A DNA stretch of 64,000 nt. Origin: a virus. The stretch spans positions 1 to 64,000 of the IMG/VR virus record IMGVR_UViG_3300042308_000168. One strand, 5' to 3'. Of the stretch, positions 25,404 to 37,895 are shown piece by piece (within the stretch, counting starts at the first letter, position 1; each line of letters starts with the position of its first letter). A program made the translations under genes and the position numbers. The notes beneath the pieces are model-generated. The model saw nothing but the letters and a program-made list of their open reading frames with translations. It made no database searches and had not been told where the DNA came from.

Positions 25404-26627
25404 ATGGCATATCAGTATGTGGATGGCGCTCGTGGTGGGCGTTTAAAGATGTGGTGCGAGGGTGTTGAGGTCGAGGCTGATGCTCGTACCCAGTTAGATA
25501 ACATTGCGTCACTCCCGTTTATTGCGGGCCATGTTGCTGTTATGCCGGACGTCCATCTTGGCAAGGGTGCAACGGTTGGGTCGGTTATTCCGACGGTTGG
25601 TGCAGTTGTGCCGGCTGCTGTTGGTGTTGATATCGGTTGTGGTATGATGGCTGTTCGTCTGTCATTGACGGCGAACGATCTACCGGACAACCTTCACTCG
25701 CTGCGTTCTCATATCGAGTCCGTGGTTCCGCATGGTCGTACCGACAACGGTGGTAAGAATGATCGTGGTACCTGGCTTGATATGCCGCTGAATGTTGCTG
25801 GTGCATGGAACATTCTGGCGGATCGCTATGCGAAGATCGTTGAGAAGCACCCGAAGATCAAGTCCCATAAGGATGTTGAGTTCCTGGGTACCCTGGGAAC
25901 GGGCAACCACTTTATCGAACTGTGTCTTGATGAGGATGACTATGTGTGGGTAATGCTGCACTCCGGGTCCCGTGGTGTAGGTAACAAGATTGGTCAGTAT
26001 TTCATTGATGCTGCAAAGCGTGAAATGGAACGCTATCATATCCTGCCGTATCTACCGGATCAGGACTTGTCCTATCTTGTAGAACATACGGAACTGTTCG
26101 ATGATTATGTAGAGGCTGTATCTTGGGCACAGGAGTTTGCTGCTCTTAACCGTCAGTTAATGATGGATGCCGTGCTAAAGGTTCTTCGTGAGCGTTTACC
26201 GGCTTTCGTTGTTTCTGATGAAAAGGCTGTGAACTGTCACCACAACTATATTGCTAAGGAGAACCACTTTGGCAAGAATGTGTGGGTGACCCGTAAGGGT
26301 GCGGTTCGTGCCCGTAAGGACGATCTGGGTATTATCCCGGGTTCGATGGGTACGGGTTCGTTCATTGTCCGTGGTCTTGGTAACCAGGATTCGTTTTGTT
26401 CGTGTTCTCATGGTGCTGGTCGTCGTATGTCCCGCAATGCGGCTCGTAAGGCAATCACGCTGGATGATCATATCAAGGCGACCGAGGGTATCGAATGCCG
26501 TAAGGACGCTGATGTAATTGACGAGTCACCGGCTGCCTACAAGGACATTGGTGCGGTCATGGCTGCACAGGATGACCTTGTGGAAATCGTGCATCGTCTC
26601 CGTCAGGTGCTAAATGTGAAGGGTTAA
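25404..26627 (+). CDS. rtcB: RNA-splicing ligase RtcB
   Basis: 407 aa with AAGGAGAA upstream. Family motifs: MPDVHLGKGATVGSVIP (47-63), GVDIGCGM with Mn-binding Cys79, LGTGNHFIEL, LHSGSRGVG, and SHGAGRRMSR with the guanylated His336. It joins RNA ends bearing 2',3'-cyclic phosphate or 3'-phosphate to 5'-OH using GTP. In a phage this would repair tRNAs cut by host anticodon nucleases or toxins. By eye the third codon positions are richer in G/C than in surrounding genes, suggesting acquisition from a host. A hairpin follows at 26658. Confidence 0.95.
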   Translation: MAYQYVDGARGGRLKMWCEGVEVEADARTQLDNIASLPFIAGHVAVMPDVHLGKGATVGSVIPTVGAVVPAAVGVDIGCGMMAVRLSLTANDLPDNLHSLRSHIESVVPHGRTDNGGKNDRGTWLDMPLNVAGAWNILADRYAKIVEKHPKIKSHKDVEFLGTLGTGNHFIELCLDEDDYVWVMLHSGSRGVGNKIGQYFIDAAKREMERYHILPYLPDQDLSYLVEHTELFDDYVEAVSWAQEFAALNRQLMMDAVLKVLRERLPAFVVSDEKAVNCHHNYIAKENHFGKNVWVTRKGAVRARKDDLGIIPGSMGTGSFIVRGLGNQDSFCSCSHGAGRRMSRNAARKAITLDDHIKATEGIECRKDADVIDESPAAYKDIGAVMAAQDDLVEIVHRLRQVLNVKG

Positions 26628-37149: not shown

Positions 37150-37180
37150 TTGACAAAAAACTCACCGTATGTTATAAATA
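37150..37180 (+). promoter_or_regulatory. Promoter of the permuted tmRNA gene
   Basis: TTGACA (37150-37155), 17 bases, TATAAA (37173-37178). The same stretch reads TATAAATA (37173-37180), a T4 late element, so the RNA could be made both early by sigma70 and late. Confidence 0.72.
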
Positions 37181-37185
37181 ATATG

Positions 37186-37251
37186 CTTAGATCGTTGAGA
37201 GACGGAATATAGGCTTCTTGGACGTGGGGGCAGTTCCCACCCGGTCCACCA
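37186..37251 (+). ncRNA. ssrA: tmRNA acceptor piece (permuted ssrA)
   Basis: The 3' half of a two-piece tmRNA, encoded first. It ends CCGGTCC-A-CCA (37241-37251), a 7-base acceptor strand with encoded CCA. The strand pairs with GGGCCGG at 37744-37750 with a G.U at position 3, the G3.U70 alanine identity element. Immediately 5' is a T-arm: GTGGG (37224-37228), a 7-base loop and CCCAC (37236-37240). The loop reads GGCAGTT, not the usual TTCRANN, which is odd. CTTCTTG before it can pair with CAGTAAG of the coding piece (P2 helix, one mismatch). The 5' boundary is approximate. Confidence 0.82.
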
Positions 37252-37267
37252 TAAGGAAATGTGAAAA

Positions 37268-37301
37268 CTTGTCGATTTATAAATAGTAATATCGACAGGA
37301 G
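37268..37301 (+). promoter_or_regulatory. Late promoter inside a Shine-Dalgarno-sequestering hairpin
   Basis: CTTGTCGAT (37268-37276) pairs with ATCGACAGG (37291-37299) over 9 bp with one G.U. The 3' arm includes part of the AGGAG Shine-Dalgarno (37297-37301) of the HNH gene. The loop carries TATAAATA (37278-37285), whose expected start is near 37291, just at the 3' arm. Transcripts from upstream would be untranslatable; late transcripts lack the 5' arm and free the SD. Confidence 0.8.
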
Positions 37302-37307
37302 ATTATT

Positions 37308-37742
37308 ATGAAACATAAGCACCATATCATTCCTAAACATATGGGTGGGAATGATGAACCAGAAAATATCGTTGAACTCACTATAGAGGAACATGCCGAA
37401 GCGCATAAGAAACTATATGAGGAACATGGACACTGGCAAGATTTGATTGCTTGGAAAGGTTTGTTGGGATTACTAACTTCCGATGAATGTTCTTTTATCG
37501 CAATCAATGAAGGCGCCAAAAAAGGAGCAGAACTTACGAACACTCTTAGATGGGCAAACCATTCAAAGAAAGAGAGAAAGTATCCTACGGGAACTGATGG
37601 TCGTAAGATTAGAACTCAAAGATATTGGTTCAATGATGGCTACGCTGAAGGTCAGTTTTCTTTGAATGAACATCCTGTAGGATGGTGGAGAGGCAGATTG
37701 AAATCTGTAATGAAGAAAACCAATCCTCATGTTTCTTTATGA
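37308..37742 (+). CDS. HNH homing endonuclease in the tmRNA intervening segment
   Basis: 144 aa. HNH signature: HHIIPKHMGG (5-14), N20, then LTIEEHAEAHKKLYEEHG (24-41) with His29 and His33. The C-terminal QRYWFNDGYAEGQFSLNEHPVGWWRGR is the WFNDG..P.GW..GR DNA-binding module of phage HNH enzymes. The gene lies wholly between the mature 3' end of the tmRNA acceptor piece (37251) and the 5' end of the coding piece (37744); its TGA ends one base before the coding piece. It would cleave ssrA alleles lacking the insertion in co-infecting phages. Expression is gated by the hairpin/late promoter upstream. Confidence 0.88.
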   Translation: MKHKHHIIPKHMGGNDEPENIVELTIEEHAEAHKKLYEEHGHWQDLIAWKGLLGLLTSDECSFIAINEGAKKGAELTNTLRWANHSKKERKYPTGTDGRKIRTQRYWFNDGYAEGQFSLNEHPVGWWRGRLKSVMKKTNPHVSL

Positions 37743-37743
37743 T

Positions 37744-37895
37744 GGGCCGGATTCAGGTTCGACAGGATTCAGTAAGGTCGTAAGGAGATCGAAAGCAAAT
37801 CGTAAATGCAAACGACAACAATGCATATGAGGCTTTCGCTCTAGCAGCGTAATCCTTTGGGTATGGGCTCCACCTCGAAACAGAACGGGCCCGCT
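37744..37895 (+). ncRNA. ssrA: tmRNA coding piece with tag ANDNNAYEAFALAA
   Basis: Starts GGGCCGG (37744-37750), the 5' acceptor strand, followed by the tmRNA D-loop signature ATTCAGGTTCGACAGGATT. The resume codon GCA is at 37808 after the usual AAT-rich leader; the tag reading frame runs to TAA at 37850-37852 and encodes ANDNNAYEAFALAA. The AND start and ALAA end are typical of alphaproteobacterial tags and of ClpXP substrates. A hairpin GGGCTC (37865-37870)/GGGCCC (37887-37892) follows and probably ends the RNA. It rescues stalled ribosomes. The 3' boundary is approximate. Confidence 0.9.

Follow-up and report, generated by a model that had tools for sequence, protein, structure and literature searches.

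An HNH homing endonuclease gene in the intervening segment of a permuted phage tmRNA gene

The tmRNA gene and its insert

The stretch of DNA analysed here (the window, 64,000 nt) belongs to a 174.5-kb virus contig of a T4-like myophage and carries genes for the gp59 helicase loader, PhoH, DNA ligase, RtcB and a baseplate wedge. The RtcB-type RNA ligase gene of this phage lies at 25404-26627. The plus strand of the window harbours a permuted gene of the alphaproteobacterial type for tmRNA, the ribosome-rescue RNA, in which the 3′ half of the tRNA-like domain, with its CCA, precedes the tag-bearing 5′ half. In cmscan searches of Rfam at the gathering threshold (GA), model RF04321 (tmRNA_permuted) matches positions 37190-37852 with 62.5 bits (GA 47, E 1.1e-9) and a second model, RF01849 (alpha_tmRNA), reaches 51.4 bits (GA 50, E 2.1e-11), both above threshold despite an insert of 492 nt. 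The original prediction, a two-piece permuted tmRNA with an HNH gene in its processed-out segment, is thus confirmed in all its coordinates by the sequence, Rfam and the ORF list.

The 3′ piece (37186-37251, with a nominal 5′ bound) comprises the T-arm GTGGG-GGCAGTT-CCCAC at 37224-37240, the 3′ strand of the acceptor stem at 37241-37247 and A73 with CCA at 37248-37251, and terminates in CCACCA at 37251. The 5′ (coding) piece, supported by cmscan and set at 37744-37895 together with its downstream helix (the 3′ bound is nominal), begins with the acceptor 5′ strand at 37744-37750 and contains the D-loop motif GGTTCGACAGG at 37756-37766 and the proteolysis tag frame ANDNNAYEAFALAA, closed by a stop codon, at 37808-37852; D-loop text and tag frame had both been read in this piece from the outset. 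The proposed pairing of CCGGTCC, followed by ACCA (37241-37251), with GGGCCGG (37744-37750) holds for 7/7 pairs and includes G37746.U37245 as G3.U70. Unlinked pieces pairing by chance are ruled out by the Rfam scores and by the recurrence and synteny of the locus. Upstream, a sigma70-like promoter (TTGACA, 17 nt, TATAAA(TA); 37150-37180) is available for putative use by the tmRNA gene and is overlapped by a late-type box, TATAAATA, at 37173-37180. The search for smpB in the 174.5-kb record found none, so the tmRNA would need the SmpB of the host.

Between the two pieces lies an intervening segment (IV) of 492 nt (37252-37743), predicted by cmscan and by the IVs of relatives to be absent from the mature RNA. 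It holds, as foreseen, an ORF that terminates one base 5′ of the coding piece (37308-37742, plus strand; G1 is 37744), and both Rfam models accommodate this ORF as an insertion within one and the same loop of the tmRNA. ARAGORN did not find the tmRNA in the window, presumably owing to the excessive length of the insert.

The ORF encodes an HNH homing endonuclease of 144 aa that matches phrog_655 ‘homing endonuclease’ (E 7e-13); the Pfam HNH score of 18.0 bits lies under the cut-off of 21.4. The HH...N...H motif is invariant across 15 aligned HNH relatives, and the modelled secondary structure (E3-6 E21-24 H26-40) has the beta-beta-alpha arrangement of the HNH catalytic motif. Foldseek comparison of the protein with the PDB gave weak matches, none of them significant. 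In the isolate phage collection, the nearest matches are cyanophage HNH endonucleases, and the protein is never covered over more than about half of its length. The related protein of contig L137 has its nearest isolate relatives among T4-type HNH endonucleases; these distant relatives, with about 31% identity to it, come from RB32/RB33-like phages.

Group I introns with LAGLIDADG homing endonuclease genes (HEGs) are known in the T-loop of other tmRNAs (PMC11915505), and a self-splicing intron could be imagined around the HEG of the window. This reading is practically eliminated, as it is contradicted by the sequence: Rfam yields no intron match and no group I or group II ribozyme core is found, the insert sits exactly in the natural IV and not in the T-loop, and the HEG is of the HNH type and fills the segment.

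Recurrence and empty alleles

Public viral contigs, gathered through similarity to the HNH protein or to the product of the adjacent gene, contain at least nine distinct lineages with a HEG in the IV: the window (also contigs L124 and L125), L127 (a group of 5), L131, L132 (a group of 3), L135, L137, L240 (a group of 3), L243 and L244. L124 and L125 come from separate datasets and carry identical HNH and neighbouring proteins with the same 492-nt IV; these matching copies, and lineages that span several contigs, rule out a chimeric assembly. HEG and tmRNA share the same orientation in all nine, and Rfam also calls a tmRNA at the HEG loci of L127, L131, L137, L240, L243 and L244. The HEG stop falls between 12 nt before G1 and 27 nt inside the coding piece, and in 6/9 lineages exactly one base before G1. 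A scan for the CCACCA pattern upstream of HNH starts returned only known contigs and one chance match at a structural-gene locus (L228); an occurrence of CCGGGAATCGATCTACG in L233 was likewise dismissed as chance. In a scan of genome contigs, a single HNH turned up, on an actinobacterial MAG contig, with no tmRNA in its inspected flanks.

The tmRNAs that carry the HEG appear sound, with 7/7 acceptor pairs and G3-U70 in 9/9 lineages whose sequences differ. This bears on the possibility that the HEG has killed the tmRNA and left a broken relic, as the record without smpB and the unusual D-loop of L127 could suggest. Such a relic is very improbable: the acceptor pairing with G3-U70 is intact and maintained by compensatory changes through nine lineages, the T-arm, tag frame and downstream part of the window are intact as well, and a phage that relies on host SmpB would not be expected to carry smpB itself.

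Alleles without the HEG exist at the same site. At the locus syntenic with that of the window, L070, L210-L213, L215, L217-L223 and L226 have empty IVs of 70-126 nt, and those of L213, L215 and L223 have an acceptor stem in common with the window. The comparison with related phages envisaged originally has produced alleles lacking the ORF, and syntenic relatives show the presence/absence polymorphism of a homing endonuclease. In a set of 107 tmRNAs resolved by way of a tag-region motif, the IVs are 70 nt long at the median and 499 nt at most, and this HNH is absent from every long IV of that set.

Purifying selection acts on the HNH gene (pN/pS 0.22-0.47), an observation that also counts in favour of the main reading given below. 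It could reflect a benefit to the phage, the endonuclease being a weapon against the tmRNA genes of rival phages through marker exclusion, with an unchanged mechanism. Free-standing T4 endonucleases are known for marker exclusion, SegG being an example cited in PMC2988022. We regard this benefit as unlikely, albeit worth consideration, since the patchy presence of the gene among close relatives fits a parasite equally well.

A predicted precursor stem that is also coding sequence

In the window, the leader that follows CCA pairs with the 3′ end of the HEG and adds 15 bp to the acceptor stem. The 5′ strand of this predicted extension is CATAAGGAAATGTGA (37250-37264) and the 3′ strand TCATGTTTCTTTATG (37727-37741), both on the plus strand and recognised by pairing and fold; the latter has a dual use, as it also provides the final HEG codons and most of the HEG stop codon. 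An unconstrained minimum-energy fold of 710 nt yields the acceptor stem with its extension (z -4.1).

Such pairing is near-universal in viral permuted tmRNAs, where the bases after CCA pair with those before G1 at an offset of two. Across 79 unique viral tmRNAs, the pairing of a leader with its own trailer scores 11.1 against 5.7 for swapped partners (2000 shuffles, sd 0.21, maximum 6.7), and in the nine HEG-bearing lineages, where the stem is kept and the sequences differ, own pairing exceeds all 20,000 shuffles; these statistics represent a strong signal and not exact probabilities, because related sequences are not independent. The idea that the IV is a safe harbour for the endonuclease gene gains support from this conserved paired stem, from the empty syntenic alleles and from the intact tRNA-like domain of nine lineages. 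In L137, L240, L243 and L244, bases of the leader could pair with the HEG ribosome-binding site (RBS) or, alternatively, with the trailer of the IV, which may constitute a switch.

Predicted control region of the endonuclease gene

A predicted RNA hairpin (37268-37299, plus strand; fold z -3.75), with a 9-bp base CUUGUCGAU/AUCGACAGG and an upper stem, covers the start of the HEG RBS, AGGAG (37297-37301). Its upper part contains a putative T4-type late promoter box, TATAAATA, at 37278-37285, 23-30 nt 5′ of the HEG start; across the window this box shows no enrichment (4 found, 4.0 expected). Like hairpins with the box occur in L132, L135, L137, L240, L243 and L244, hence in seven lineages including the window (z -2.0 to -6.9), and the leaders of L127 and L131, just 10-11 nt long, are too short for a hairpin or a D-loop copy. 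By predicted sequence and fold, the arrangement is that of a late promoter inside an RBS-blocking hairpin, of the I-TevI/mobE type. In I-TevI, segB and Aeh1 mobE, the hairpin closes the RBS on long transcripts and leaves it open on late ones that start from the promoter it contains (PMC2988022).

The same leader includes a copy of the tmRNA D-loop motif, whose consensus is AAATAGG(A/T)TCGACAGG. This copy, ATCGACAGG (37291-37299, plus strand), matches over 9 nt, a match reached by 0.5% of shuffles, overlaps the first bases of the RBS and is a candidate autorepressor operator. It is found again in L132, and the corresponding copies are AAATAGGAT in L135 and L137, AAATAGGATCGA in L240 and AAATAGGTTCGA in L243 and L244. 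The summed match of the leaders to the D-loop is 72 against 36.9 +/- 2.6 for shuffles, and at least 12/16 D-loop matches are present upstream of 11/20 tmRNA-linked HNH genes as opposed to 0/46 unlinked members; the resemblance is suggestive only, since its letters are partly shared with the late promoter and the RBS. In I-TevI, autorepression works through an operator that resembles the homing site and overlaps the late promoter (PMC2988022). By analogy, the significant D-loop likeness over the late promoter suggests that the target of the HEG may be the D-loop region of the tmRNA gene, about 12-22 bp from the insertion point, as a putative homing site.

One feature counts against D-loop targeting. 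Alleles with and without the HEG have the same right flank of the insertion, TTATGAT followed by GGG and the D-loop. The D-loop of the window is unchanged, and L127 alone has an altered one; a D-loop target would thus not by itself set the HEG's own allele apart. HNH nickases may not need to spare their own allele.

Signs of mobility in the HNH lineage

Ties to tmRNA extend beyond the IV. Among the 80 closest HNH relatives, 31 are tied to a tmRNA, with 13 loci inside an IV and the other 18 next to a tmRNA or tmRNA fragment. These tmRNA-linked HNHs are clustered on the protein tree (built without L240, L243 and L244), with 3 changes compared with 18.9 after shuffling. A sister clade lies beside phage tmRNAs, mostly in antisense orientation (L136, L139-L142, L146, L148-L152, L156, L164-L166, L176 and L196), and its loci often have a full tmRNA on one flank and on the opposite flank either a 3′ piece broken in the T-loop (ending in GGACGCGGGTTCGA) or a copy broken in the acceptor strand. 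This arrangement looks as if the gene had come in along with a replacement tmRNA. A second HNH fragment, in antisense, is found at L135:3834-4040, about 200 nt beyond the tmRNA of that contig.

L127 provides a further indication of movement. Set beside syntenic tmRNAs that are otherwise near-identical, it diverges mainly close to the HEG: identity is 53% over the 32 nt that precede the acceptor and 47% over the initial 36 nt of the coding piece, but 89-100% at greater distance. The tract flanking the HEG thus appears conversion-like, as co-conversion would be expected to leave. The HNH proteins of L127, L131 and L132 have 61%, 59% and 53% identity to that of the window, compared with 90%, 47% and 42% for the flanking exonuclease and 61%, 35% and 28% for gp59. 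Between the window and L131 or L132, the HNH is more alike than exonuclease and gp59. A fully non-syntenic spread of L131 and L132 is ruled out by their distant synteny (exonuclease, gp59), so the argument for horizontal transfer rests on relative divergence; as several of the HEG-in-IV phages are distantly syntenic, presence of the HEG may partly be vertical.

Other IVs also contain ORFs. Those of L016, L060 and L091 have an ORF of 57-58 aa (2281-2454 in L016) with a CxC...CCGTC cysteine pattern, which overlaps the coding piece and has no Pfam match. Small ORFs, partly membrane-like (e.g. L025, L052 and L106), are present in the 150-500 nt IVs of L025, L052, L095, L106, L080, L093, L114, L023, L005, L027 and L044, the last extending into the coding piece. 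In Sinorhizobium phage Phosso, a permuted tmRNA that lacks annotation (L001:2445-3047) contains an IV of 410 nt that shows no clear ORF, and extra T-arm-like hairpins (GGTTCGATTCC) are seen inside the IVs of L210 and L140. The phage tmRNA IV looks like a general cargo slot.

Unrelated small ORFs in other IVs show that the slot is permissive, and in many phages members of this HNH family stand alone between other genes. The HNH gene could then be passive cargo, one of many small ORFs in an IV that tolerates any insert, homing elsewhere or never. We judge this distinctly unlikely, given that two related HNH clades are specifically tied to tmRNA in varied orientations and positions, some members adjoining broken T-loops, and given the D-loop copy in the leader and the conversion-like tract in L127.

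Proposed mechanism

We consider it likely that the HNH gene is a tmRNA-targeting HEG lodged in an excised spacer, the host gene being spared by tRNA-end processing and not by splicing. The wider proposal, held with less assurance and still somewhat favoured, is that of a tmRNA-specialised lineage of mobile endonucleases for which the IV would be the equivalent of an intron, with tRNA-end maturation in place of splicing and with the final HEG codons also forming one strand of the precursor stem through which the host RNA stays functional. Sequence comparison establishes the gene structure and its recurrence, the existence of empty alleles, both stems, the copy of the D-loop and the tmRNA linkage of the sister clades; expression timing, processing, cleavage specificity, homing and autorepression are what we infer from them. 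The precursor stem, the late-promoter hairpin, the D-loop-like operator and the sister clade go beyond the original prediction.

The colonist of the spacer would be a small HNH HEG of a type that T4-like phages elsewhere carry as a free-standing gene. The sigma70-type promoter would act early in infection and produce a single precursor containing the 3′ tRNA half, the HEG and the tag-coding half. The acceptor stem with its 15-bp extension would fold this precursor, leaving the HEG as an open loop whose RBS is shut by the hairpin. Processing by RNase P and tRNA 3′-end enzymes is established for permuted tmRNA. Here, these enzymes would cut at G1 (37744) and after CCA (37251) and discard the HEG, so that the host gene is kept from harm by tRNA-end processing and not by RNA splicing. 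Late in infection, the promoter within the hairpin would give a shorter mRNA, free of the 5′ arm and open to translation. The HNH protein would then recognise the D-loop region of the tmRNA gene, adjoining the insertion point, and nick or cut HEG-free alleles of co-infecting phages, into which the HEG would be copied by recombination. It may also repress its own gene through the D-loop-like copy in the HEG promoter.

Relation to known systems and significance

Two-piece tmRNAs account for 53 of 133 unique tmRNA structures of phage genomes, mostly marine or aquatic (PMC9004378), and the 2025 tmRNA database holds 97,179 sequences, 79 of them from phages (PMC11915505). The locus resembles the permuted tmRNAs of Alphaproteobacteria and marine phages (Melnitz, PMC9004378; RF01849/RF04321) in piece order, CCACCA end, G3-U70, D-loop motif, tag frame and predicted IV removal, and differs from them in that their IVs are tens of nt long, whereas that of the window has 492 nt and an HNH gene. 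The tmRNA HEGs of the database paper are exclusively LAGLIDADG, in group I introns (36 of 883 intron forms; PMC11915505). These resemble the window in that an endonuclease is hosted in a tmRNA gene and removed from the RNA (as predicted here), but the window has no intron or ribozyme, relies on predicted tRNA-end processing and bears an HNH-type gene at another position. Inserts reported in permuted IVs are one tRNA gene (tRNA-Ala) and one repeat element (PMC11915505), also foreign DNA in an IV, although single cases without an endonuclease gene.

The predicted late promoter in an RBS-blocking hairpin is shared with I-TevI, segB and Aeh1 mobE, and the candidate operator resembling the homing site with I-TevI (PMC2988022). 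The HEGs of the T4 group and the Mob/Hef-type HNH genes lie in introns or between or within protein genes, none being described there in an RNA-processing spacer, and segB sits in a tRNA cluster, unlike the window HEG in its IV (PMC2988022). An endonuclease in the IV is not mentioned in the 2022 phage survey (PMC9004378) or the 2025 database paper (PMC11915505), and no description of an HNH gene in a tmRNA IV was found in the open-licence literature. The HEG in a tmRNA IV thus appears to be new; two-piece tmRNAs of phages, taken alone, are in the literature already (PMC9004378).

The locus comes with a series of naturally occurring tmRNA alleles that either have or lack the insert and offers a testable HEG target in the tmRNA D-loop region, and it shows that tmRNAs with long spacers can escape a standard finder, as the window escaped ARAGORN. 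It also contains one DNA stretch predicted to serve both as protein code and as RNA processing stem. Homing endonucleases are usually explained as hidden in introns, inteins and intergenic gaps. A spacer cut out by tRNA-processing enzymes would be another hiding place, one for which no splicing machinery of its own is needed.
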